From contig JAQJDB010000007.1 of NCBI GenBank assembly GCA_032139905.1, forward strand, positions 1,364,001-1,428,000: a stretch of 64,000 nucleotides of DNA, given 5' to 3'. Within the stretch, counting starts at the first letter, position 1, and each line of letters begins with the position of its first letter. Both the position numbers and the translations under genes were made by a program. This document shows positions 5,556 through 19,208 of this stretch, piece by piece. This DNA comes from Nitrospira sp. MA-1 (GTDB lineage Bacteria; Nitrospirota; Nitrospiria; Nitrospirales; UBA8639). Below the pieces are notes generated by a model. It made no database searches, was not told the origin of the DNA, and saw nothing but the letters and a program-made list of their open reading frames with translations.

Positions 5556-5783
5556 GACAGCCTGCTCATGGGTGACCCCAGGACCATTATCTAGGGGTTC
5601 AACGTGGGGCGACCAAACTCGCGATGCCTGGCCTGAGGCATGCCGAAGGGCTCAAACTTTTTCCCCAGAAGAACCCGCAGAGAAAAGTTAACTATTCTAA
5701 ATTTTGCGGAAGGTTGGAAGGGGGTTGGGAGTAGGTGTGAATGCAAGGCCGGAACTCAAGCATGAACGTTTCGTCTGTAGTCC
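5556..5783. other. intergenic sequence before the repeat
   Basis: No gene seen. The sequence joins the permease to the interspersed repeat at 5784. Confidence 0.35.
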
Positions 5784-5999
5784 GACGCCTGTCGGCTGGC
5801 CCCAAGGAGGGACGCTCTTATCCGTTGCGGACCTTGTTTGAGCCCGGCGAGTTGGGCCGCTCTTCAAAAAGTTCGCGTCCCTCCTCTTCAATAAAGCCAG
5901 ACGAGGCGTCAATGGTTTTGGCCACTTTTGCTGAAACAAAAGGCCTCTCCTGAGCGAGGTCGAAGGAGGCTCGTCGTCCGGGGCCGAAACCCCGGCAAC
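5784..5999 (+). repeat. palindromic interspersed repeat, left copy
   Basis: About 200 bases that reappear in reverse orientation at 19012-19208 with roughly 85 percent identity by eye; the left copy has about 25 extra bases at 5945-5970. It contains an exact inverted pair, GGAGGGACGC at 5806-5815 and GCGTCCCTCC at 5875-5884, and a second small hairpin near its end (CCGGGGCCGAAACCCCGG, 5978-5995). It encodes nothing convincing. The structure fits a REP-like or MITE-like palindromic element. It stands on one side of the defence operon, with its inverted partner on the other. Confidence 0.75.
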
Positions 6000-6073: not shown

Positions 6074-6562
6074 TTATTCAGCGCCACTCCGCTGCGCCTC
6101 CTCAAACAACGCATTACACTCCTGCTCCAGAATCCCCCCAATCACTCTCGTGTTCCGAAAGGGTGTCCGCCTCGACACCTCCTCGGCCCGAATATCGATC
6201 TGCCGCAAACCGAGTTGTTGGAGAAAGGGAATCGAGGTCCCAAAGTACACGGTAGCAATGCCCGCCCACTCGATCGCACTCTGACACATGGGGCAGGGTT
6301 CAGCGGTTGTATACAAATCGAGTGCGGTCCAATCAACCGGTGTATGCTTGGCCGCACAGCGATTGATGACATCGATTTCGCCGTGGAGGGTAGGGTTGCG
6401 AGAAGAACGGTTGTACCCCTTCGCGAGAATCTCTCCAGTTGTCCGGCGAACGATGACGGCCCCGAAGGGATATCGGGGGACCTTCTGCGCCATGGTAATG
6501 GCCAGGCGCATATACTCTTCAGGGCGCAATTTCTGTTGATGTTTCTTAGCAATTTTCTTCAA
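6074..6562 (-). CDS. nucleoside/nucleobase deaminase (CDA superfamily)
   Basis: 162 residues with the zinc-site motifs of the cytidine/deoxycytidylate deaminase superfamily: HGE (about residues 60-62) and PCPMC (about 89-93), where His and two Cys hold zinc and Glu moves the proton. FGAVIVRRTTGEILAKGYN is the usual first strand pair. The overall pattern is nearest to guanine deaminase or TadA-like members acting on free bases or tRNA; the substrate is unsettled. The only start that keeps the basic N-terminus is TTG at 6562; an ATG at residue 18 is possible. It begins 28 bases after the glycosylase gene and is probably the last gene of the defence operon. Confidence 0.7.
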   Translation of the reverse strand: MKKIAKKHQQKLRPEEYMRLAITMAQKVPRYPFGAVIVRRTTGEILAKGYNRSSRNPTLHGEIDVINRCAAKHTPVDWTALDLYTTAEPCPMCQSAIEWAGIATVYFGTSIPFLQQLGLRQIDIRAEEVSRRTPFRNTRVIGGILEQECNALFEEAQRSGAE

Positions 6563-6589
6563 ATCTTTTGGCCCCGTGCCGACACTCGG

Positions 6590-7285
6590 TCAAGCTCTTC
6601 CCCCGGTCTTACAAAACTGGCGGATGCAGCAACCGTCGCAGCGGGGATGTGAAGGGAGGCAGCACTTCCTTCCGTGGGATACAAAGTTGACATGCAAACT
6701 GAAGCGCAGGTTCGGCGGCACTCCTTTTTGGACACGGTTCATGTCGCGGGGAGAGCATGATTTGTCAGGTCGAGTGGGCCGCACCCAGCCGAGTCGGCGG
6801 CAGATGCGCCAACAGTTAGAATCCACCGGGAACACTTCGCGGCCGAGCGAATACATCATGACGCATCTCGCGGTTTTTCTTCCAACGCCTGGCAGTGACT
6901 CCAGGTAATTTTCGCACTCAGCATCGGTCATGGCCCGCAGCGGCGAGAGGGTCGGAGTGCCGAAATCGGACTCTAATCTAGAGAGAATGGCGCAGATCGT
7001 GCGGGCCTTCTGGCGTGAAAGGCCGCCATGAGCTATTGCTGCGGCAATGTCGTCCTCCGAGGCATCGGCAAGCTGACCGAATCTCGGAAAGACTGACATT
7101 AGCTTTGTGTACGTTGATCGGTAAAGCGTTTCATTTGTCTGGACGCTGCAAATGATGAAGATCAGCTCTCGCAGAGGATTCACCTTGTTTCCATGTGCAT
7201 GATCTGAGTAGCACTCCGAAAGCGCCCGGGCAACGGCTTCTACATTCAGTAAGTAGCTCCGGCAGCGAGGCTCTGACTGGCTCAT
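6590..7285 (-). CDS. endonuclease III-like DNA glycosylase/AP lyase with 4Fe-4S cluster
   Basis: 231 residues. The helix-hairpin-helix LPGVGRKTA (131-139) carries the lyase-type lysine K137, and VDSN gives the catalytic aspartate D155. The C-terminus has the exact endonuclease III cluster spacing C209-x6-C216-x2-C219-x5-C225. Both catalytic residues are present, so it should be a glycosylase with AP-lyase activity rather than a MutY- or Mig-type monofunctional enzyme. The ATG at 7285 overlaps the methyltransferase stop (ATGA), so the two are translationally coupled. A likely role is repair of T:G mismatches from deaminated 5-methylcytosine, as Mig and Vsr do beside other cytosine methylases, or cutting of altered phage DNA. 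The role is inferred. Confidence 0.8.
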   Translation of the reverse strand: MSQSEPRCRSYLLNVEAVARALSECYSDHAHGNKVNPLRELIFIICSVQTNETLYRSTYTKLMSVFPRFGQLADASEDDIAAAIAHGGLSRQKARTICAILSRLESDFGTPTLSPLRAMTDAECENYLESLPGVGRKTARCVMMYSLGREVFPVDSNCWRICRRLGWVRPTRPDKSCSPRDMNRVQKGVPPNLRFSLHVNFVSHGRKCCLPSHPRCDGCCIRQFCKTGGRA

Positions 7286-8394
7286 TGCACCGCCTTTTTG
7301 AGAAAGCACTTCACCGCACCTGCTAGATGAAATGCCATGACGCATGGCACGCCGTTGCAGGTCATCTTGAATTTGGCCGAAAGCGACATCTCCTCCGGCA
7401 GAACATATTCATCTGGGACTGACTGGATCCGCAGTGCTTCGCGCACAGATAGACGCCGTGTTTTCCACGGGTGCAAATGGACTTCTTGGTTGCCGTACCA
7501 TGCGGTCGGACTGAAACGGTACCGGTGAAGCCTCTTGAATGACTTGCCTGAAACATCGCCTTCTTTAACTTCCTTGAACTTGCTGGAGTACGGGTTGAAG
7601 ACATCTTCCCCGTTTGCAATCTTCTCCGGGTCGCCGTTACCAATCAGTGCAGGATACACCGTCAGTTCGATAGGGATTTCATTTGGCTTCGCGGGCTGTT
7701 TACCAAACGTAATCACCTTGGGCCAAGCAAGCGACTTCGCCCCATTATAGGGCTCGATTTCCGGCCACAGAAACCAGCCGCCCTCGTCCGCCATGAGCCT
7801 CTGGCCGATCGCACGCTCGGCCAGCGATTTCTTGAAGCCGACGACAAATAACCGCTCACGATCTTGCGGGACACCCAATTCGAGTGCGTTAAGGATCCTG
7901 TAATCGACAACGTATCCGTGGTCCTGCAATTGGGCGATCTTGCGAAAGAGAAACTCCCGATGCTTATGAAAACGGTAAAGGCCTGGCACGTTCTCAACGA
8001 CAAAAAAAGACGGCTTAATACTACAAATTATGTCTGTGAACACACTGGTCAGTTTCCCATTCTGCCCGTTGCCGCCAGCATGGGTTCCGCCCTTACTAAA
8101 GTCGGGGCATGGTGGACCACCGATTACCCCAAAGATTTCGGGGCGGGGTCCGGAAAACGCTTCACTAAGCACCTTTTTTGCGGGCAGATCGCAAACACTG
8201 CTCGTATTAGAAATCTCTGCTGTTACGTCCCGTTTCTTGCCGAGTGAAGAGAGCCAGGAAGACATGCCATGCTCATATCCCGCTACAAACACGGGATTGT
8301 TTTCGTTTGTCCAGCAGATCGTGAACCCTGCCTGATTGAAGCCAAGGTCGAAGAAACCTCCCCCCGTAAAGAATGACAGCACTGGAAATACCAT
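7282..8394 (-). CDS. drmMII: DNA (cytosine-5) methyltransferase of the DISARM-like operon (DrmMII-like)
   Basis: 370 residues with the ordered C5-methylase motifs: I, LSFFTGGGFFDLGF (about 6-19, S-adenosylmethionine binding); IV, GGPPCPDFS with nucleophile C96; VI, ENVPG (134-138); VIII, GVPQDRERLFVVG (174-186); and X, NGVPCVMAFHLAG at the end. The target-recognition region is about 190-330. The gene follows drmB directly (TAA then ATG) and overlaps the glycosylase by ATGA. In class 2 DISARM a C5 methylase marks host DNA so that the system spares it; that role is inferred from this neighbourhood. The recognised sequence cannot be read from the protein. Confidence 0.88.
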   Translation of the reverse strand: MVFPVLSFFTGGGFFDLGFNQAGFTICWTNENNPVFVAGYEHGMSSWLSSLGKKRDVTAEISNTSSVCDLPAKKVLSEAFSGPRPEIFGVIGGPPCPDFSKGGTHAGGNGQNGKLTSVFTDIICSIKPSFFVVENVPGLYRFHKHREFLFRKIAQLQDHGYVVDYRILNALELGVPQDRERLFVVGFKKSLAERAIGQRLMADEGGWFLWPEIEPYNGAKSLAWPKVITFGKQPAKPNEIPIELTVYPALIGNGDPEKIANGEDVFNPYSSKFKEVKEGDVSGKSFKRLHRYRFSPTAWYGNQEVHLHPWKTRRLSVREALRIQSVPDEYVLPEEMSLSAKFKMTCNGVPCVMAFHLAGAVKCFLKKAVQ

Positions 8395-10287
8395 TTAGCC
8401 CTCCGTGGCTCGATTGAAGAATCCGATAGTGGGATTGCGGAATGGGCCGATAACAAGGCCCCGGTCGAGAAGCCGGTTGAACTCCTCGCACGCCGTCTCC
8501 GGCACCAGGCAGCAACCGTGGCAAGCCGCGAGGTTCAAGGAATCCGGCCCTTGGCCTCCGCTCTGGCCCATCTCCATGCAAACTGGGTCGGCGGAACACC
8601 ACTGCGCCCCCGTGAGCGCGCGTTCCAGCAGCGGCTCCAGCCGCCCTAGCCTGCCCATGCGTACCAGCCCGCCGAGCGTCCCCTCGGCATCGCCAGCGGC
8701 CGTGTAAATCAGGACGCCCGCCATCGGGGCAGCAGGATTTTCCGATACGTACAACCGCTCCCTGAGCGCTGCCGAACTGTAGCCGCACTCGTAGGTGAGG
8801 CGATTGATGAGCAAGTGCGCGAGCGTATGCAGGAGGACGTAGCGCGGGCCAATTTGGCGGTCGCGGAGATGGCGAGCCTGCCGCAGCGCTAAGTACCTCC
8901 CAAGCAGCGGTGCTACGCGGGCCTGAATGTCCGGCAAGGCTTCCCACTGCCGCAGTAGCTGCTCGTTGAGCGAGAGGAATATCCCTTCGCCGAACACCGT
9001 GTAGGCGGGCAACCACATCTCGGTTGGGGGATTGAGTCGAAGCATTGCCTGCTGGCTGGCAAGGTCGCGGTCTGTGTCGGCATAGACCCGTGTGAAACCG
9101 GTAAGTGCCCGCGTCTCGCGCAACTTGTGGACGAGGGTGACATGCGAGAAGAAACGTGAGAAGTCGGGCGCGTAATCCCGGAGATTGGCGGGCCTCAGTA
9201 CGAGTTGGTCGAAGTCGGCGGCGGTAACGAGCGTGTCGTACTCTTGCCGCCGGAATCCCGTTTCGGCATCGTCACCCGCAGTTGGCTGTCGCTGCTGTTG
9301 CCCTCCACTGCCGCATACCGTGGCCATGGCTTCTTCAAGCTGCCGATCGGTGTAGCCGTGCACTAGTTCGTGGAACTGTGCCCGCAAGTTCGCTGGCGTG
9401 GGAACAACCCCAGCACTTCGCAGGATGCCGACGAAGGTGCTGATTGGTGGTTGCTCCAGTAACGAAATGACTTCCGCTACCGTTGTGTCTTCACTGCGAG
9501 GGAGGTAAATCGAACTATAGATTTGGGCGAAATAGACGTTGGCGGCGCTGCGGAGCGTGCCTCTAAGGGGCCTGCCACACCCTTCACCCTCCTCAGTCCC
9601 GAGCCACGGGCGATGGCCGTGGCACAAGTATGGTGCCCCACTGCTGTCTAGCAGGCGGCTCAAGTCTGTATCGTTGCCGTCAGGGCTGGCATTGGTGATG
9701 CCGGCAAGCGTCCGCTCGGGCCCCCCATCTACCTTTACCTTCTGCCCCGCCAGCGTCATACCGCCGGTCGAGACAAGACGCATTGCGGGCCCGTTCTGCA
9801 GCGGGGTTGCAGTCCTGTAAACCCACTCGACCCAAGGGAAGTCTTGGATGTGCCCCGCATCACACATGGCGACGAAGGGAACTTGTACAATGTACCTTGT
9901 CCACCCGCGCGCATCACATTCAGCACATTTGATCCTGCCTCGTCTAACCAGAGGAACTCTGCTCATTACCCCGCACCGAGTACAGTAATGCCATTGCGGG
10001 AATCTGAGAAATGGCACCGTGAGACGGCGGTTTATCGGAGAATCGTGGCGGCCTCCTCGCCGATGGTCGGGTGGAAGATAGAAATGAGCAACATTGAGCC
10101 GAGATGCAAGCCGCCATTCATCGATCCGGTATTCTTGAGGGTCAATGTTATCAGTAGTATCGTCTTCATGCTTGAACCAGTGGTCAAGCCCACCACCGAT
10201 AACGGAAACACCATCAGACAGAATCATCATTGCGCCGGGGCCAAACGGCGAAATGAGTTGGCCTCGTCGCACGGGTCCCCTAGGCAT
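8395..10287 (-). CDS. drmB: DISARM DrmB-like protein (DUF1998)
   Basis: 630 residues. The N-terminus RRGQLISPFGPGAMMIL followed by a GLDHW element is the typical start of DrmB-type DUF1998 proteins. A CTRC...CAEC zinc-binding set lies at about residues 60-85. The C-terminal third holds DUF1998: LLHTLAHLLINRL, ECGYSSAALRERLY, and a final cysteine-rich part (ACHGCC, then CEEFNRLLDR). ATG at 10287 has GAGGA 8 bases upstream and overlaps the drmA stop by 8 bases; the open frame extends a little further but lies inside drmA. DrmB works with the DrmA helicase as the DISARM core complex that blocks incoming phage DNA. Confidence 0.85.
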   Translation of the reverse strand: MPRGPVRRGQLISPFGPGAMMILSDGVSVIGGGLDHWFKHEDDTTDNIDPQEYRIDEWRLASRLNVAHFYLPPDHRRGGRHDSPINRRLTVPFLRFPQWHYCTRCGVMSRVPLVRRGRIKCAECDARGWTRYIVQVPFVAMCDAGHIQDFPWVEWVYRTATPLQNGPAMRLVSTGGMTLAGQKVKVDGGPERTLAGITNASPDGNDTDLSRLLDSSGAPYLCHGHRPWLGTEEGEGCGRPLRGTLRSAANVYFAQIYSSIYLPRSEDTTVAEVISLLEQPPISTFVGILRSAGVVPTPANLRAQFHELVHGYTDRQLEEAMATVCGSGGQQQRQPTAGDDAETGFRRQEYDTLVTAADFDQLVLRPANLRDYAPDFSRFFSHVTLVHKLRETRALTGFTRVYADTDRDLASQQAMLRLNPPTEMWLPAYTVFGEGIFLSLNEQLLRQWEALPDIQARVAPLLGRYLALRQARHLRDRQIGPRYVLLHTLAHLLINRLTYECGYSSAALRERLYVSENPAAPMAGVLIYTAAGDAEGTLGGLVRMGRLGRLEPLLERALTGAQWCSADPVCMEMGQSGGQGPDSLNLAACHGCCLVPETACEEFNRLLDRGLVIGPFRNPTIGFFNRATEG

Positions 10288-13200
10288 CACTAATTTCCTC
10301 TTCGCCGAGAATGTAGAGTTGTGTGATTTCGGCCTGACATTCGGCATCAACGTTGCGCAAGGACTGCGGCGTAGCCCATGAGACCCTAGATTTTTCTGGT
10401 GTCACATATGCACCTGATGGCCTCAATAAAGGCATGTTCTCAGTATTAAGTCCGCGATCCCATTCTGTTCTCTGCCACCTCTGCCACTCATCAACCCGCC
10501 GCTGGAGGATCCGGCGGAGCGCCATGAGTTCGTCTGGATCAACGGAGGCTGCTCGCTGGTCGAGGATGCTCGATACGGCGGCGACCAGCGCTTGGGGAAA
10601 GGGGTACGGGCTTTTGGCCTGGTCGGAATCGCCGAGTTGCCGCACATAGCTTGCGATGACGGCGTGGGCCGCGCGGTCAAGTGCTGGTCGCGAGAATGGC
10701 GTGACGCTCGTCGGTTCCACCTGCGCGTACAGCCGCTCGTGGTAGCTTCGGAACTTCTCAAAATGAGAGCGATCGCGGGGTTTCGACGCGGTATAGATCG
10801 TCACCACGAGGCCGGGCCGATCTGACTTGCGGCCAACACGCCCTGTAACCTGGATGTACTGGGAAGTTGTTTTTGGCTGTCCGACAACGGCCATCAGTGA
10901 AAGGCGGTCAATATCAACGCCGACCTCGATGATGTTGGATGCCAGGCAAACATCTACAGCCTGCCCCTGCTGCGAGACCGTGGGGACTTCAAGGGCGGAA
11001 ATAGCCTTTGGCACCTCGTCTCCCGGCAGGCGGCCGGTTAGTTCGAGTATCTTCCTGAGTTGCCGGACATCTTGGAAATTCATACCGAGGCGCTGCCTGA
11101 GGGCACCCCTGAGCAAATCCGGGATGTCGGACTGGAAGAGCGTGAGCGTCGTTCCAAGTTCGCGCAAGCTGTTGAAGAATAGCAGTAGCGTCCACCAAGG
11201 GTCACGGTCGGCAGCCGCCATTGGCTGCGGAGCCTGGAGCAAGGCTGAAAACGTGCGTACCTGTACCGTCTGGAGCGAGCCGAGGCCTGGCGCATGGACG
11301 CCGGCGTAAATGCGCCCGCGCTCAAGGGTACCATCGGATCGCCGGGCAACTCTTGCGAAGAACGAGTCGTCGGCGTCCAGGCCGGGCGGTGGGAACAGGC
11401 TTGTGCGATCTCGCGCGTAGAGGCCCTGCACCTGCTCAGCGTAGCTGCGGATCGTCGCGGTGGAACTCACAATTTTCGGTTTGGCTACCTGCTGCTCCCG
11501 TCTGTCGGTACACAATTCCTCAATGATCGGTTCGTAGAGTCCGACCATCGACCCCAGCGGACCGGAAATGAGGTGCAGTTCATCCTGGATAATGAGACCG
11601 GGCGGTGAATAGGCTCGTGTCCCATCCTCGGCAATGCCAAACAGCGAGCGCGCCTGCGGCTTCCACGCAAGCATGGCAAACTTGTCCACGGTGCCGATGA
11701 CAAGGGCCGGACGCGTTTCGTAAATGTCCTCATCGATGACATATAGTGGGAGCAACCCGTGGAATTCGCAGCGCCGATCGGGGCAGGCGTAGACGACCGT
11801 GTTGTTGCGGCGCACATAACCAATGACGCGGGGAACGCCACCCCTTCGGCCCCGCCCGCTGCGGGTGGTGAGGTTCACCGGCCCCATTTCTGCCCCGCAC
11901 CACGGGCACCGATCCAAGACAAACTTGTTCTGTTCACTCCCGTCGCAATTTTGCAGGCTACGAAGGACAGAGCGGGCTTCTTCCCGCGTGTTCGGCGTTG
12001 TGGCACTGCCAAGCCAGATGCCGGTGGAGATTTCGGCCTTGCCCAATTCTCCGGCACATTGGCGCCGGACATATTCCATCGCGCAAATCAACCGGGAGGC
12101 ACGCTGGAACTGCTGCGCGGTGAGCAGGCGGAGCGTGTACCTCATCAGTGTCTGTATGCCGGTGTCGGCAGGGTTCCGCAATCTGCGAAGGAAGATGCTG
12201 AACGCGGCCAGTCCAAGATACGCTTCAGTCTTACCCCCGCCTGTAGGAAACCAGATAAGCTCTACCCGTTCGCGGTCAGCGTCACCTGCATCCGCCGTTG
12301 ACCGCAGAGTGGCGAGGATGAATGCGATCTGAAAAGCTCTCCATTGGCTCCCCCGCGCGCGTTCAGAGTTCAGGTCGAGCGATTCGTAAGGCTCGGTAAA
12401 CTGGAGCGTCGAAGTTTCATGATCGAATGAGGCGGTGCGGGCTTCCCGCCTCGACCTCACTTGCTGCGTGACCATTGCGAGATTTGCGAGCCGGAAAGCG
12501 CGGCGGACTTGCTGGTCGCTTGCAAGCAATGAAAGGCCATCGCGCATCCGCCTGGCTGCTTCGGAGCATTGCTCCATGTGGGCTTCGGCGGTTTCGCGCA
12601 ATTGCGCGCTCAGGCCGGGGATACGGTCCCGCTGCACCGCGATCCACGCCTCGTACTCGCAGACAATGGCCTCAAGCTGTTCGGTGCCGTCGGAACTCGG
12701 GTCGATCCCGGACAGCAATCGCATGGAAGCGACAAGCGGCTGGCCGTTGCTTGAAGGAATGTCCGGCGTGGTGCTCGGCGTTTCAAAGACTGGCAGGCAT
12801 TCGGCTGAGACGCTATCGGCGGCGGTTACGGCGGTGCGGGTCCAGTCAGCCGCGCACCCGTGGCCTACCGCGAAGGTAAGCTTGTCACGGTACAGCAACT
12901 CTTGCGAGCGCTCTTCGCTGTCTAGCGGTTCCCCCGTCGGGTATGGCAGGATTGTTCCGGGAGAACCGGGGTTCAAGCGGACCTCGATCCGGGATTGGAA
13001 AAGGGATTGAGAATCTATGCGGCCACCGGCCGACTGGCGGTTAACCAGGCACACCGTGATGAGGTATTCGTCTGGCCGGGATTGGTACGGCCTGGCGAAG
13101 ACTTCGATCCGCACGTCGAGATTCTCGACATTCTCCCGCAACGGATCACGGGCTTTGACGTAGCCGGTAGAGTCGGGGAAATCCTCGTGGTGGAAGTGGC

Positions 13201-13774
13201 TTTCAAGCCTAACCGGTGAGCGGAGCCACCATTCTCTCTCGCGTCCAAGAAGCGTCACTGGCAAGATCGTATACCGCCCCCCTGTCGCCAACACATGTAG
13301 CGCAGTCCGTTGTGGGAGATGCACTAGCAGGCTTACAGCCATGCTGCTAGCCTTGTATGTATTGGCAGACGAGAGGTCGAAATCGTCCGAATCGGCTTCC
13401 GGGAGCCGGTACTCGGCGCGCGCGGCGATCTCTTCGCAGTTACGCACGGCAGAAGGAGCCAGCGTTTCCCTGGCATTTTCCGGTAGCTGAAGTGCAGCCT
13501 CTTCATCCGGTGGGGGAAGCTGGGCATCAAGTTCGTCGGCCGCAACCAGGGCCTCCATCGGGTAAAGGACACCGACGCCGTAGCGCTTCGTTGGAGAGTC
13601 CCGCTGGAGAATCTCTTCGCCAGAACCGAGTTGGCGGTACGGCCTGTAGGCCGTCTCGGCATCCTCCAGGTGGATGGCCTGCACGCAGTCGATTTCCTGC
13701 CCGAGCGGGGACGGCCCGACGAGTTCCTCGCGGAGCGCCCGCAGCACTCCATCACGATTCGCAATATGTGGCAC
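10280..13774 (-). CDS. drmA: DISARM helicase DrmA
   Basis: 1164 residues from the GTG at 13774 (AGGGGAG 6 bases upstream; a TTG at 13792 is less likely). The long N-terminal half has no named fold. The helicase half has Walker A FPTGGGKTEAYLG (around 509-521), a DELH box in IIQDELHLISG, motif III SSTATI and motif VI TGRVGR preceded by GQPKTTSQYIQ, which is characteristic of DrmA. Between the motifs is a zinc-like set (CPWC, then CPDRRC). GC is visibly higher than in flanking housekeeping genes. DrmA and DrmB form the conserved core of DISARM. Confidence 0.88.
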   Translation of the reverse strand: MPHIANRDGVLRALREELVGPSPLGQEIDCVQAIHLEDAETAYRPYRQLGSGEEILQRDSPTKRYGVGVLYPMEALVAADELDAQLPPPDEEAALQLPENARETLAPSAVRNCEEIAARAEYRLPEADSDDFDLSSANTYKASSMAVSLLVHLPQRTALHVLATGGRYTILPVTLLGREREWWLRSPVRLESHFHHEDFPDSTGYVKARDPLRENVENLDVRIEVFARPYQSRPDEYLITVCLVNRQSAGGRIDSQSLFQSRIEVRLNPGSPGTILPYPTGEPLDSEERSQELLYRDKLTFAVGHGCAADWTRTAVTAADSVSAECLPVFETPSTTPDIPSSNGQPLVASMRLLSGIDPSSDGTEQLEAIVCEYEAWIAVQRDRIPGLSAQLRETAEAHMEQCSEAARRMRDGLSLLASDQQVRRAFRLANLAMVTQQVRSRREARTASFDHETSTLQFTEPYESLDLNSERARGSQWRAFQIAFILATLRSTADAGDADRERVELIWFPTGGGKTEAYLGLAAFSIFLRRLRNPADTGIQTLMRYTLRLLTAQQFQRASRLICAMEYVRRQCAGELGKAEISTGIWLGSATTPNTREEARSVLRSLQNCDGSEQNKFVLDRCPWCGAEMGPVNLTTRSGRGRRGGVPRVIGYVRRNNTVVYACPDRRCEFHGLLPLYVIDEDIYETRPALVIGTVDKFAMLAWKPQARSLFGIAEDGTRAYSPPGLIIQDELHLISGPLGSMVGLYEPIIEELCTDRREQQVAKPKIVSSTATIRSYAEQVQGLYARDRTSLFPPPGLDADDSFFARVARRSDGTLERGRIYAGVHAPGLGSLQTVQVRTFSALLQAPQPMAAADRDPWWTLLLFFNSLRELGTTLTLFQSDIPDLLRGALRQRLGMNFQDVRQLRKILELTGRLPGDEVPKAISALEVPTVSQQGQAVDVCLASNIIEVGVDIDRLSLMAVVGQPKTTSQYIQVTGRVGRKSDRPGLVVTIYTASKPRDRSHFEKFRSYHERLYAQVEPTSVTPFSRPALDRAAHAVIASYVRQLGDSDQAKSPYPFPQALVAAVSSILDQRAASVDPDELMALRRILQRRVDEWQRWQRTEWDRGLNTENMPLLRPSGAYVTPEKSRVSWATPQSLRNVDAECQAEITQLYILGEEEISDA

Positions 13775-13788
13775 CGGTTGCTCCCCTT

Positions 13789-15528
13789 TCAATTTTTTTT
13801 TGAGACTCCGAGCAGTGACTGGATAATGCCAGCCTTGGCCGTCTCATGCACAATGATATAGAGCCGCTCCAGCGCCCGTGTTGTCGCAACGTAGAAGAGT
13901 GATGAGAACATGTCACCATCGACATGTTCGATGTCAGTGACGACGATGGCGGGGGAGTCAAGCCCCTTAAAGCTCTGAATGGTGGTATAGCGGATCTGGC
14001 CGGTTGAAGCAGTCTCGAAGGCTACTAGCTGGTTGGACCAGGGCTTGTCAGTAATACTGGCCGCTGCGCATCGCGTCCCGGCCTTCGGCGAAAGGACAAC
14101 GATGTCATCGCCGCTGTAGGATTCCTTGAAAAGGCGTTCGAGTGTTTTGCCGAGTTCTTTGCGCTGCTGGGATGGCGTGGCGTAGTAACTGATAATCGGC
14201 TCAATGTGGTCATCGGGCCGGAGGATGCGCGAGTAGTTAGGCGTGAGGCGGCCTAGGAGGTGCGACAGCGCCGCAACGCGGGGCGTGTTCCGGCAATTCA
14301 CGCGGAGTGCCCCCCTTGCAAAAGTACCACACCGTTTGCGGATCAAATCCTCGACCTGGTCGCGGTCTTGCCCGTAGAGCATCTGCCGCTCGAAGTCGCC
14401 GAACATGCGCCACGAACCGCCCAATATCCCACCTTTGAGGACCAGTTCCAGCACGTCGAGATAGGGAGGGTGAAGCAAGTCCTGCATTTCGTCGGCAATC
14501 ACCATGTCGAACCGTCCGGTGTCCCGATGCCCGTCCAGCAGCTTTGCCATTGCCGCCTCCGGCAACCCGGCCTTCCAGAACGAGGCATCCGATCCTTCCG
14601 GCACCTTGATGCCGACGATTCCCGCCATGTACTGGTGCAGCGTTCCGGCTGTGATCTGGCCGCTACGCGTGACAGGGTGGTTGGACAACCACCTCCCGAG
14701 CAAGCGGTTGAAGCACACGAGTAACACGCTCATCCCGGTAGTTGCGGCCCTGCGAGCAACTTCCAATGCGAGGACGGTCTTGCCTGTCCCTGCCGGCCCA
14801 GTGAAAAGTACGCGGAGGTTTTCCTCCATCATGTCGATCGCTGTGAATTGTTCCTCGGTGTAGTAGATGATTTCCGCCTGCTTGCGCAGGCGGCGGTCCT
14901 GGGCTTTCTCTGCAAACTCAAAATTTGGCCGCAGGATTCTCGCAATCGCAGCAGACTGCTGGATGTCCGGCAGGTGGTCGCTATCACAGAACCACTTGGC
15001 CGATGACTGCGATTTCAGATGCGATCTCGCACTTCGCAAGATACCGCTGACCAGCGGCGCAATTTGCTTCCGTATGAATCGGGCCGAATCAACCACCTGC
15101 CACGGATGCCATTCGCCGGAGGCGGCTTTCAACTCGATGAATGGGAATGCAACGGCGGAGCAGAAGGGAACGCGGGAAAGCGAAGTGTCGTTTTGGATGA
15201 CTTGCTGCCGGAGGCTGTGCATCGCCTCAGCGGCTTGCTTAAAAGGGCCGCGCGGGTCGCCCTTAGGATCATGGCCGTAGAACCAGAGTCCATCCCTTCG
15301 CTCAAGTGAATGGCACGCCTTCACTTCGAGGCAGAGTACGCCGAGCGAAGGCACGATGATGACAAAATCAGCCTCGCCGGACACCTGCCGCAAATGCTGC
15401 GCGATGTCGAGCGAATGGAGGACGATCCAGTCCCGTGTAGCCTCTTCTTGCTTGAGTTTGGCGAATATCTCCTGCTCGCCAGGGCTGGGGCAGGAAACAG
15501 GAATGGTTGGCGGGATCATCCGAGCCAC
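13789..15528 (-). CDS. NERD nuclease domain fused to SF1 (UvrD-like) helicase
   Basis: 579 residues. Residues 15-140 match a NERD nuclease-related domain of the PD-(D/E)xK type: D54 in EADFVII, then LEVKA with E68 and K70. From 240 follow SF1 helicase motifs: Walker A GPAGTGKT (244-251), a DEMQD Walker B, an FKGLDSPAIVV motif, and a C-terminal ATTRALERLYI motif VI. GTG at 15528 starts 2 bases after the stop of the gene before it; the drmA start is 14 bases downstream. This protein is not one of the DISARM genes I know by name and may replace the phospholipase-D-type DrmC, which is absent. A role in degrading incoming DNA is inferred. Confidence 0.75.
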   Translation of the reverse strand: MARMIPPTIPVSCPSPGEQEIFAKLKQEEATRDWIVLHSLDIAQHLRQVSGEADFVIIVPSLGVLCLEVKACHSLERRDGLWFYGHDPKGDPRGPFKQAAEAMHSLRQQVIQNDTSLSRVPFCSAVAFPFIELKAASGEWHPWQVVDSARFIRKQIAPLVSGILRSARSHLKSQSSAKWFCDSDHLPDIQQSAAIARILRPNFEFAEKAQDRRLRKQAEIIYYTEEQFTAIDMMEENLRVLFTGPAGTGKTVLALEVARRAATTGMSVLLVCFNRLLGRWLSNHPVTRSGQITAGTLHQYMAGIVGIKVPEGSDASFWKAGLPEAAMAKLLDGHRDTGRFDMVIADEMQDLLHPPYLDVLELVLKGGILGGSWRMFGDFERQMLYGQDRDQVEDLIRKRCGTFARGALRVNCRNTPRVAALSHLLGRLTPNYSRILRPDDHIEPIISYYATPSQQRKELGKTLERLFKESYSGDDIVVLSPKAGTRCAAASITDKPWSNQLVAFETASTGQIRYTTIQSFKGLDSPAIVVTDIEHVDGDMFSSLFYVATTRALERLYIIVHETAKAGIIQSLLGVSKKN

Positions 15529-15530
15529 GG

Positions 15531-17111
15531 CTATTCATCCGAATCCAGCAGGACACCGATGCGGTCTGCAGGAATCTCGTACTCCTCTTCCGATATGCCC
15601 GTGATCTGGAATGCCGAGAGCGTCCCGCCATCCTGCTCATCAAGGTCGAAGACCATTTCGCCGTCCCGTTCCAGCGGCTCCAGCGATGAGGTTGCAATCT
15701 TCTGCAAGAGCATCTGCCGTATTGCTTGGCCTGCCCTCCTGTGTGCCCGGTCGATTTCTCCCATCGCTTCCCAGAGGTCCTGCGTTCTGTCTGACATGCC
15801 CGCGAATGCCAGTATGGTGGTGAAGTCCTCTTCCTTTCGCGGGTGAATGCACTTCGCGGACATCCAATAATGGACATTCGCAGGGCGGGCCTCGGACAGA
15901 TTCTGCGAGCGCAGGTTGCCAGCGACGCGGGCAGCAAGTTCGTGGCGACTCAACGGGCCGAATCGCTCTTGCGCCGCGGCGACTAGGCGGTCTTTCCATC
16001 CGGCTTGCTGCGCGCGGCGTTCTGCTGCCAGGGGGCCGAGAATGCGGTCGGCAAGCGGGGCGATGAAGTCGCCTCCCCCAGATGTTCGCAGCAGAAGGTA
16101 CAGTTCCAGCTCCAACTCATCAGCGGGCACGCGCCTGACAACGGAATCGCCTGTTTCCGTCAAATCAATGACGAGCGAAGAAGAACCTTCATCGGCAGAA
16201 ACAAAGACAGCGCGACCACCGCTCAAGTGGCAGAGCCGGGCCGGTAGCGTCTCGTCGCCGGCACTGGGTTGCCATCCAGGGATGTGCGAACCGGCTTGGC
16301 CCAAAGGGGGCAGGGGCGGGAGCAAGTCCACCGGTTGGAGATCGGGCAAGGTCTGGGTGGGTGGGACGGCCTGGCCTCGAAGCTGCGGTAACGCGCCGAC
16401 ATAGTGCTTCCGGCTCTTGTCAGCTGAGGAACCTGTGCCGTTGAGGAACACCGGCCCCGGCTTCCACGGGTCGCGTATCCAGCGGAATGACACTACATGG
16501 ATTTGCGCCGCGCGCGGCGCTGAGAAAACATAGTCGGGAAACCACCCGCACGGACCAATGGCAACAAGCACGTCGCACAGATGCGCTTCTCGCAACTGCC
16601 GCGCGCTGACAACTGTGGCATTCCGCAACGCGGCGCTGTCAGCAAAGTACGCGGCCACAGCCTGGTTCATGCCGGGATTCCGGAGAACAACCGATAGGCC
16701 GCCGCTTTTCCCGTGCAACAATTCCAGCGGCACAGTAAAGGGCGAACCTGTTTCCGCACTTAGGCTTTGCAGTTTCTGCACAAGGCTGGCGAGCGCGGCG
16801 TGCGAATCGGGGTACAGTTGCTGGCAAAGCCGCACCTGGCGGTGTAGTTTGTCCCAATCAATGCAAGCGGCTACGGCCGCACGATCAAACGGTAGCGGTG
16901 TAGAGCAAAGAGCGAACGCGAGGCGGCTGACTGGGCCGAGCACCGACTGCCAGAACTCTTCTTCCGCTTCGGAATCCAGCGACTGGACCAGTGAACGGCG
17001 CGAACGCGAAACATCGGCCAGTCCCGCGTGATCTACCCAGTGGCGAGTGATCTCGCATTTGGAAGCGGTCTCGTAAACGCTGGTTGCGTTGCCGATTGAA
17101 ACGGGCTTCAT
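15531..17111 (-). CDS. DrmE-like protein, C-terminal part
   Basis: 526 residues, no catalytic motif that I can name. The first 200 residues look alpha/beta (DVLVAIGPCGWFPDYVFSAP, then an IHVVSFRWIRDPW strand-turn). A proline-rich linker spans about 255-285. The C-terminus has a basic, helical segment. Position before the helicases fits DrmE of class 2 DISARM. The ATG overlaps the stop of the preceding frame (ATGA). The frame is also open upstream of that ATG to the G/C tract at 17148-17156, so this may be the second half of one protein split by a tract-length change. Assignment to DrmE is inferred from context and length (324+12+526 = 862 residues when fused). Confidence 0.5.
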   Translation of the reverse strand: MKPVSIGNATSVYETASKCEITRHWVDHAGLADVSRSRRSLVQSLDSEAEEEFWQSVLGPVSRLAFALCSTPLPFDRAAVAACIDWDKLHRQVRLCQQLYPDSHAALASLVQKLQSLSAETGSPFTVPLELLHGKSGGLSVVLRNPGMNQAVAAYFADSAALRNATVVSARQLREAHLCDVLVAIGPCGWFPDYVFSAPRAAQIHVVSFRWIRDPWKPGPVFLNGTGSSADKSRKHYVGALPQLRGQAVPPTQTLPDLQPVDLLPPLPPLGQAGSHIPGWQPSAGDETLPARLCHLSGGRAVFVSADEGSSSLVIDLTETGDSVVRRVPADELELELYLLLRTSGGGDFIAPLADRILGPLAAERRAQQAGWKDRLVAAAQERFGPLSRHELAARVAGNLRSQNLSEARPANVHYWMSAKCIHPRKEEDFTTILAFAGMSDRTQDLWEAMGEIDRAHRRAGQAIRQMLLQKIATSSLEPLERDGEMVFDLDEQDGGTLSAFQITGISEEEYEIPADRIGVLLDSDE

Positions 17112-18118
17112 GGAATCTTCTCCCGGAAAGCGAGGACTTCCCCTCCTGGGGGGGGGACGCCACTTCCTGGCGAGGAAGTCAAAACATCGGCGCGATTCTG
17201 CGAAAACCTGGAATTGACGGCGCTGACCGCATCATCGAAATAGAGTTCTGTGCGGTCGAGGATGACAATCTGGTGCCGGTCCGGCCACATCGCTCCCCAC
17301 TTGAGGAAGCCCGCCGCCCCATCGAACACGACCCCCATCTCAACCTTGCTGATAACGTCGCCGCTTGGTGGGCTGGAACCGACAGTCACGAGCGCGGAGC
17401 GGTAGGATTGCTCGCCCGCGGTGAAGCGATCTACGCGCAGCACATCCTGTAACTGGCCGTCCGCCTGCCAGTCGCCGTTGGCATGCAAGGCAAGAGGAGT
17501 GTGCCGGATTTCATGGTCGAGCGCGTTCTTCTTGCCCACGATGGCGAAGACGAGCTTTGACCGCAATCCGAGCTGAACCGGATCGGCGTCGCCCAAGAGG
17601 CTGTCAACAAAGCTGTTAGCGAACCGTTTATTCTCCGCGCCCTGCTTCTTAGGCAACTTACCGGAATGTTTGGCTGGCTGCACCTGGAGCGCTCGCGTCT
17701 CGTCTATCAGGTACGTTAGCCCGCCGCCAGTTCTGGCGTCCCTGGATTGCACCTGCACGCGCACATACAGCTTGCCCTTGTATTCTTCCGGTTCCTGCAA
17801 CACGCCTTTCAGAACCTTACGCGCGGATTGGCGGAGGATGACGGGGGTGTCGGCGGGAAGGTCGAAGAGTTTTCCAAAGTGGGCCGCTGCGGAAGAGTGG
17901 TCGCGTGCGGCTGCATCGCTGATGACCATCCCCAGGCTTACAAATGCCGCGCAGTAGGCCCGCGTCGGTACGACAATGGCAATCACAATTCGGCTCTTGG
18001 AGTTGTCCGCGAATGCGAGATGCTTCCCAACGCTAATGAAATACTCGGCCCACTCCGGGAGGCTATACCACTCACCGGAGTCCTCGAAATACAGGTTTAC
18101 TGGTGCAGGGACGCTCAT
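17108..18118 (-). CDS. DrmE-like protein, N-terminal part
   Basis: 336 residues, first gene of the defence operon. No known motif; the sequence is mixed alpha/beta with a hydrophobic strand (RIVIAIVVPTRAYCAAFVSLG) near residue 45 and a late conserved-looking segment (HQIVILDRTELYFDDAV). The last 12 residues lie beyond a nine-cytosine run (17148-17156 on the plus strand as G) and look unlike the rest. With one more base in the run, the frame would continue straight into the 526-residue protein. No strong ribosome site precedes ATG 18118. Probably the N-terminal half of a DrmE-like protein; the C-terminal tail is probably an artefact of the frame change. Confidence 0.5.
   Translation of the reverse strand: MSVPAPVNLYFEDSGEWYSLPEWAEYFISVGKHLAFADNSKSRIVIAIVVPTRAYCAAFVSLGMVISDAAARDHSSAAAHFGKLFDLPADTPVILRQSARKVLKGVLQEPEEYKGKLYVRVQVQSRDARTGGGLTYLIDETRALQVQPAKHSGKLPKKQGAENKRFANSFVDSLLGDADPVQLGLRSKLVFAIVGKKNALDHEIRHTPLALHANGDWQADGQLQDVLRVDRFTAGEQSYRSALVTVGSSPPSGDVISKVEMGVVFDGAAGFLKWGAMWPDRHQIVILDRTELYFDDAVSAVNSRFSQNRADVLTSSPGSGVPPPGGEVLAFREKIP
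17148..17156. repeat. nine-base G/C homopolymer tract at the junction of the two DrmE-like frames
   Basis: Nine G on the plus strand (C on the coding strand), encoding Val-Pro-Pro-Pro near the end of the upstream frame. Adding one base (or removing two) makes the upstream frame run through GGAGAAGATTCC into the ATG of the downstream frame without a stop. The tract is therefore a possible on/off switch, a slippage site, or an assembly error. Confidence 0.7.
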
Positions 18119-18250: not shown

Positions 18251-18712
18251 TTAGCCCCTTTTCTCTCGCAGAGCGGCCACGATTTGGAAAAGCAAAAACC
18301 CCGACCTACATTTCAAATCGTAGGCGGTAGTAGAGGACTTGGCATGCTGCGACAAGGTGCCAATGACCTTGGCTATGATGCGGCTGACTTCAGACGGGGT
18401 GTAGAGCTGGCCCTTGCTCTTTCCGCTCTGGCTGGCGAAGTGCCGCATCAGGTATTCGTAGGCGTCGCCCAGGATGTCGCGTTTGGCACGATTCTTCGAG
18501 AAATCGAGCGCGGGATTCTCAAAGATGGTAATTAGGTTTCCGATCCGCTCCACTTGGGTTAACACGTCGCCGAGCTTGTTCGAGTCGTGTAAATCGGTAC
18601 GGGAATGGTATTCGAGCGTTGGCATAAACCTGGTATGGGGGGTGTTCAGGTAATATCCAAAGGGTTTGGCATGCTGGAGCAAGATAGATAACCGGAAATG
18701 TACCTCAGGCAT
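18251..18712 (-). pseudogene. hsdM: hsdM remnant (type I restriction-modification N6-adenine methylase)
   Basis: A 153-residue open frame keeps the middle of HsdM: ALDFSKNRAKRDILGDAYEYL, then GKSKGQLYTPSEVSRIIAKVIG. The S-adenosylmethionine motif that should read close to DPTCGSGSLLLK is instead DLKCRSGFLLFQ, and the frame stops soon after. The N-terminal domain, the NPPY catalytic motif and the whole C-terminal half are missing. No hsdS or hsdR is nearby. It is a dead relic, apparently cut by whatever brought in or deleted sequence next to the defence operon, whose first gene starts about 130 bases downstream. Confidence 0.75.
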
Positions 18713-19011: not shown

Positions 19012-19208
19012 GGGTGCCGGGGTTTAGTCCCCGTACGACGAGCCACTTTTGTTTCGGCAAAAGTAGCCAAAACCATGGACGCCCCGTCTGGGCACATGGA
19101 AGAGGAGGGACGCCCAACTTGAGAAGAGCGGACCAACTCGCTCTGCTCAAACAAGGTCCGCGAACTGCGAAGAGCGTCCCTCCTTGGGGCCAGCCGGCAG
19201 GCGTCGGG
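19012..19208 (-). repeat. palindromic interspersed repeat, right copy (inverted)
   Basis: Reverse-strand counterpart of 5784-5999. It keeps the exact GGAGGGACGC/GCGTCCCTCC palindrome, the TTGTTTGAGC core, the ATGGTTTTGGC block and the terminal hairpin, but lacks about 25 bases found in the left copy. The two copies face each other across the defence operon. Confidence 0.75.

Follow-up and report, generated by a model that had tools for sequence, protein, structure and literature searches.

The locus described here raises the question of whether it encodes an ordinary DISARM system with additional neighbours or a DISARM variant of its own. It lies in a stretch of 64,000 nucleotides (the window) from Nitrospira sp. 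MA-1, and an earlier note, made from the sequence alone, had described it as a class-2-like DISARM operon with extra nuclease and repair genes. Seven minus-strand genes, running from 18118 to 6590, encode two proteins termed X and Y, a NERD-SF1 helicase, DrmA, DrmB, a C5 methylase and an HhH-GPD glycosylase (Table 1). The operon itself is confirmed and belongs to DISARM, although it departs from the standard class 2 layout. Overall, it is probably best explained as a horizontally acquired DISARM variant with a split DrmE, a NERD effector and a repair glycosylase.

Table 1. Genes of the DISARM operon in the window, in order of transcription. Comparable loci from other genomes carry L numbers in the text.
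Feature	Coordinates	Strand	Basis of assignment
X, predicted DrmE N-terminal half, 336 aa	17108..18118	-	recurs directly before Y; collinear match to DrmE N-terminal profile
Y, predicted DrmE C-terminal half, 526 aa	15531..17111	-	NF038316 (weak); profile against full-length DrmE
NERD-SF1 (UvrD/RecD-type) helicase, 579 aa	13789..15528	-	Pfam NERD (E 5e-12), UvrD_C_2
DrmA, DISARM SF2 helicase, 1170 aa	10280..13792	-	PADLOC, NCBIfam, 7s9v
DrmB, DUF1998/MZB zinc protein, 651 aa	8395..10350	-	NF038324 (417 bits)
DNA cytosine-C5 methyltransferase, predicted DrmMII role, 370 aa	7282..8394	-	Pfam (E 2e-45)
EndoIII-like HhH-GPD [4Fe-4S] DNA glycosylase, 251 aa	6590..7345	-	Pfam HhH-GPD (E 2e-11)

The genes are tightly packed. 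ATGA overlaps are found at the X/Y junction and at the junction of methylase and glycosylase, where the probable glycosylase start (7285) overlaps the methylase stop. The NERD/DrmA junction is a TTGA overlap. The probable start of DrmB is Met22 (at 10287), since homologues align from residue 22; if this start is used, DrmA and DrmB overlap by 8 nt. The remaining junctions have 0 or 2 nt. The order of DrmA, DrmB and C5 methylase and the close contact of the genes had been described correctly, except that drmE probably consists of two genes, which had been missed. The GC content is 58-61% across X, Y, NERD, DrmA and DrmB, compared to about 50% in the flanks, which bears out the GC-richer part noted earlier. 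It is lower in the methylase (52%) and glycosylase (56%) genes. Upon a promoter and terminator scan, matches were no more frequent than in shuffled sequences. The dN/dS values (0.05-0.16 where dS is finite, with dS often saturated) point to purifying selection.

The operon extends from about 6590 to 18118. Its end is set at 6590 because the next gene, a deaminase (6074-6562) that had been counted as part of the operon, is a host gene. We tried it as a component and rejected it. It is located 27 nt outside of the operon, and homologues with 84-93% identity occur in several sister genomes, where the gene is conserved beside a TauE gene at sites devoid of DISARM. Two of these genomes (G794 and G229) have the TauE gene near the deaminase with a dispersed repeat alongside, and their retrieved regions contain no stretch matching the DISARM operon. 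Judged by these comparisons, the deaminase counts as a bystander gene of the host. On the other side, directly upstream of the operon, positions 18251-18712 encode a 153-aa piece of the type I methylase HsdM, a remnant of another restriction system.

The right flank (from 19481 on) is found elsewhere in the sister genomes; in G794, it is at 938 kb, compared to 1431 kb for the left flank. Therefore, the locus is rearranged, and a simple comparison with an empty site failed. Two inverted copies of a dispersed repeat (about 170 bp) flank the region (window positions 5780-5950 and 19015-19207), and about 50 scored copies per genome exist in the genus. Because the right flank is non-syntenic with the sister genomes, a repeat-mediated rearrangement at this locus is possible.

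The DISARM core, a DrmA helicase adjoining a DUF1998 protein (DrmB), is present. The earlier note had named the family thresholds of these two proteins as a touchstone. DrmB clears its threshold (NF038324, 417 bits with a cut-off of 240). DrmA scores 893 bits, just under the 950-bit equivalog cut-off of NCBIfam DISARM_DrmAS, yet it matches PADLOC DrmA at E 7e-211. Against the solved DrmA of Serratia (7s9v), the E-value is 4e-147. In the DrmA tree, 16 rows from systems with a split DrmE form one branch (support 100/100), which is separate from class 1 rows (100/99) and class 2 rows (99/98). Split-DrmE DISARM thus appears as a branch apart from the sampled class 1 and class 2 systems. The NERD-bearing rows require two changes on this tree; therefore, NERD was gained or lost more than once. 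In two loci from plasmids of Deinococcus gobiensis and Photobacterium (L076, L079), the genes after DrmA-DrmB code for an AAA ATPase and a hypothetical protein. Their DrmA proteins cluster (100/99) and perhaps represent another DISARM type.

The identity of X and Y is less obvious. X has no family match (PADLOC, Pfam, NCBIfam), and neither protein is called by PADLOC or Pfam. X is, however, encoded directly before Y in 20 or more loci. The window Y matches the DrmE model NF038316 only weakly (E 1e-4, 20 bits, cut-off 80). Several of its homologues reach 73-98 bits, among them the one from L016 (97 bits); the Calothrix homologue exceeds the cut-off. A profile from 16 Y proteins matches eight full-length DrmE proteins with a probability of 99.8 and E 2e-30, covering profile positions 375-905. 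A profile from 22 X proteins is collinear with the N-terminal part of DrmE (best local path 56-210, full path 46-375). Its score is 34.0, while column shuffles reached at most 21.0 (100 shuffles) and the reversed profile 19.4; the HH-suite probability, at 10%, is low. Only the pooled profile beats the shuffles, and X subsets (cassette or Bacillaceae) are not significant against DrmE when used alone. The Y match on DrmE starts where the X match stops (about position 375). In addition, two loci have a one-chain DrmE in the slot of X and Y, directly preceding the NERD-helicase, DrmA and DrmB: one from Chloroflexota (L101, 894 aa, 157 bits against NF038316, cut-off 80) and one from Desulfobacterota (L103, 879 aa, 175 bits, same cut-off). 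Because of the Y and X profile matches and the single-chain DrmE in the same slot, taken together, we predict that X and Y are DrmE, split into two genes. X and Y might instead be a distinct two-subunit module that replaced DrmE. The weak match of X alone and the failure of PADLOC to detect DrmE in either protein would fit such a replacement, but the nearly full-length match of Y, which begins at the end of the X match, and the single-chain DrmE in L101 and L103 argue against it, and we consider it very unlikely. No relative of Y was found in viral contigs.

Structural models suggest what the two halves of DrmE may be. In the AlphaFold2 model of X (pLDDT 81), a Tudor/SH3-like barrel (about residues 80-150) interrupts a RecA1-like fold. 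The model aligns best with DEAD-box RecA1 domains (DDX28 RecA1, Z 7.6, 171 aa), a VIA Z value within the range that is reachable by common folds. In the model of Y (pLDDT 78.5), residues 9-228 are modelled as an SF2 RecA2 domain carrying a helical insertion of the RIG-I/Hef type; a barrel comes next, and the C-terminal region is helical. The RecA2 part aligns with MDA5 Hel2 (VIA Z 9.9, 196 aa). The aligned RecA2 domains carry the same kind of helical insertion as MDA5, Dicer and Hef, and XPF is also among the matches. Foldseek returned no match with E <0.001 for either model. A Walker A motif is absent from all 17 X and all six DrmE sequences inspected, which mostly have PTRxYAAAL at the P-loop position. 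A catalytically dead helicase-like fold of X-Y is graded as no more than a supported hypothesis because the Z values are moderate and the Foldseek E-values are not significant.

Between Y and DrmA, a NERD nuclease domain is fused to an SF1 (UvrD/RecD-type) helicase, as had been recognized before. Its motifs are intact: the PD-(D/E)xK residues are conserved (D54, E68 and K70 in the window protein), as are the Walker A (GPAGTGKT) and DExQD motifs of the helicase. It is the only predicted nuclease of the operon. As previously stated, a phospholipase-D-type DrmC is lacking; no PLD/DrmC match was obtained for any operon gene (PADLOC, Pfam). We consider the NERD-SF1 helicase a candidate effector in place of DrmC. 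Fourteen loci from five phyla (Nitrospirota, Planctomycetota, Desulfobacterota, Chloroflexota and Deinococcota) have the protein in this position, after DrmE/Y and before DrmA: the window, L006/L007, L010, L011, L012, L015, L020, L096, L097, L098, L100, L101, L102 and L103. NERD is not essential to the lineage because split-DrmE loci from cyanobacteria, Bacillota and one Chloroflexota locus are devoid of it (L004, L005/L008, L013, L014, L016, L018, L019, L036-L038 and L099). An Azospirillum plasmid (L080, 4664-14899) codes for a UvrD helicase, DrmA, DrmB, a NERD-helicase and a DarT-like gene; this NERD-helicase is diverged and occupies the DrmC position behind DrmB.

Scanning genomes with the Y family yielded 11 loci, and profile searches added eight more. 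The order X, Y, NERD-helicase, DrmA, DrmB, C5 methylase and glycosylase recurs across phyla. The earlier note had made its proposal of an undescribed variant dependent on the recurrence of the extra genes with drmAB elsewhere. The NERD-helicase and the glycosylase do recur, so that a variant without DrmC stands, with the deaminase removed from it. It could still be argued that this is an ordinary class 2 system and that the NERD-helicase and the glycosylase are unrelated neighbours in a defence island, given that defence genes cluster and that the cyanobacterial and Bacillota split-DrmE systems occur without NERD. This reading is disfavoured, and we regard it as highly improbable: the gene order is identical across five phyla, genes overlap, glycosylase and methylase are found fused, orthologs are 69-80% identical in distant hosts, and DrmA falls into a separate clade. 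The window proteins share 73-84% identity with their counterparts in a Planctomyces MAG, which indicates horizontal transfer. Some copies appear damaged: Y has a stop codon in L020, X is broken in L102 and DrmA is broken in L100. Two loci contain further genes. In the NERD-DISARM locus of Deinococcus psychrotolerans (L007, 5689-7848), the end of DrmB is overlapped by a gene for a protein of 719 aa that matches HTH weakly. A Planctomycetales cassette (L011, 20629-21474) has a NOV_C-domain protein after the glycosylase.

The C5 methylase has intact motifs (GGPPCPDFS, ENV, QxRxR). It matches the DrmMII models of PADLOC (E 7e-27), with DruM2 scoring better and being the closest model. The endonuclease-III-like glycosylase of the earlier note proved to be an HhH-GPD protein that recurs with the methylase. 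It matches EndoIII structures at E 7e-26, has retained the catalytic Lys and Asp and has a four-cysteine cluster. L011 and L012 each have an ortholog of it behind the methylase. In L015, a MutY/Mig-type glycosylase without the MutY C-terminal domain is adjacent to the methylase. A glycosylase is fused before the methylase in L100, and another glycosylase is fused after it in L101, in the opposite order. No glycosylase was seen after the methylase in L010 and L096. From the recurrent adjacency and the two fusions in opposite orders, we conclude that the glycosylase belongs with the C5 methylase. What had been described as extra nuclease and repair genes is better viewed as two separate additions: the NERD nuclease-helicase as a candidate effector, and a repair glycosylase that is coupled to the methylase.

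Mig.MthI and Vsr are known to repair T:G mismatches, which arise from 5-methylcytosine deamination, beside C5 methylases. Here, too, an HhH-GPD glycosylase with a [4Fe-4S] cluster is paired with a C5 methylase. The Mig.MthI structure 1kea is matched at E 7e-6 by the window glycosylase and at E 1e-37 by that of L015. The window enzyme differs in being of the EndoIII type and in residing in a DISARM operon rather than a type II restriction-modification system. Because two glycosylase subfamilies repeatedly pair with a C5 methylase, repair of deaminated 5-methylcytosine (T:G mismatches) appears to be the likeliest function by analogy. The predicted T:G substrate is left uncertain because the EndoIII-type Lys is kept, unlike in Mig.MthI. 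This lysine would permit AP-lyase activity, and restriction glycosylases have been reported (PMC10273834, PMC4357717), so that the enzyme might instead be a base-excision effector, which would excise bases from unmethylated or phage-modified DNA, as restriction glycosylases do, and leave AP sites for the NERD nuclease. This is unlikely, since a common role in T:G repair better explains why the methylase is fused or paired with both EndoIII-type and MutY/Mig-type enzymes, and L010 and L096 have no glycosylase.

With anatomy, conservation and fusions taken from sequence comparison, we infer the following steps for a DISARM variant with a repair glycosylase. The C5 methylase would mark host DNA as self. 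Serratia DrmAB is autoinhibited and loads on unmethylated 5'-overhang DNA (PMC9142583), and DrmAB of the window may likewise load on unmethylated 5'-overhang or single-stranded phage DNA. The X-Y pair, as an ATPase-dead SF2 pseudo-helicase, might serve as a DNA-binding scaffold, clamp, gate or adaptor that joins DrmAB to the effector. The NERD-SF1 helicase would then unwind and cut the bound DNA, replacing the missing DrmC. The HhH glycosylase would not be an effector, but would remove thymine from T:G after deamination of host 5-methylcytosine and thereby limit host mutation. More tentatively, and with some doubt on our side, we speculate that this is a third DISARM class, in which DrmE, as an SF2 pseudo-helicase of the RIG-I/Hef/XPF kind that lacks ATPase activity and is split here, loads a NERD effector onto phage DNA together with DrmAB, while the glycosylase offsets the mutational cost of the 5-methylcytosine self-mark. 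Which nuclease acts as the effector of DISARM has been puzzling, since the system can do without DrmC and often lacks it (PMC9142583). The variant puts forward the NERD-SF1 helicase as a candidate for a dedicated effector, and the split pseudo-helicase as a fold of DrmE that can be tested. The fusions would be evidence that C5-methylating defence systems bring their own repair enzyme against 5-methylcytosine deamination.

For comparison with known systems, class definitions were taken from PMC9252829 (PADLOC type II) and PMC9142583. A DISARM system with split DrmE and NERD-helicase was not encountered in the literature covered (the preprint by Bell et al., PMC12458937, PADLOC and reviews). DISARM with m5C-like and m6A-like methylases had been noted earlier in Nitrospirae (PMC6329791). 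NERD PD-(D/E)xK domains in defence operons are shared with the DRT-associated RTasNERD-Hel, TALON and Mokosh/Nhi-like systems. Here, NERD is joined to an SF1 helicase and linked to DrmAB and DrmE, and there is no reverse transcriptase, TPR-CSD or TBP gene. In TALON, NERD, TPR-CSD and TBP genes accompany a YprA helicase that is ARMADA-like and consists of one chain, whereas the helicase of the operon is a DISARM DrmA with a separate DrmB, and there is no TPR-CSD/TBP gene. With DISARM class 1 (DrmD, DrmMI, DrmA, DrmB, DrmC), the operon shares the DrmA-DrmB core; it has neither the SNF2 helicase DrmD nor the adenine methylase DrmMI nor DrmC, and its DrmA belongs to a different clade. PADLOC type II (PMC9252829) requires DrmC, which is lacking here; its DrmMII is represented by the C5 methylase, while DrmE would correspond to two genes with no PADLOC DrmE match (20 bits for the window Y, with 80 required by NF038316). 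In L018, a PLDc/ResIII helicase is encoded about 2.3 kb downstream of DrmB and was not counted as DrmC. Three class 2 loci from Bacillaceae and Lactiplantibacillus (L034, L035, L081) code for a C5 methylase and, ahead of DrmA-DrmB, for a DrmE-type protein in one chain; no DrmC is annotated or was detected beside DrmB. The term class-2-like is thus apt for the operon of the window with respect to a DrmE-type protein before DrmA-DrmB and the C5 methylase, as in class 2 (DrmE, DrmA, DrmB, DrmC, DrmMII), but not beyond: DrmC is absent, DrmE is probably encoded by two genes, a NERD-SF1 helicase precedes DrmA, a glycosylase is added, and DrmA belongs to a separate clade with 100/100 support.
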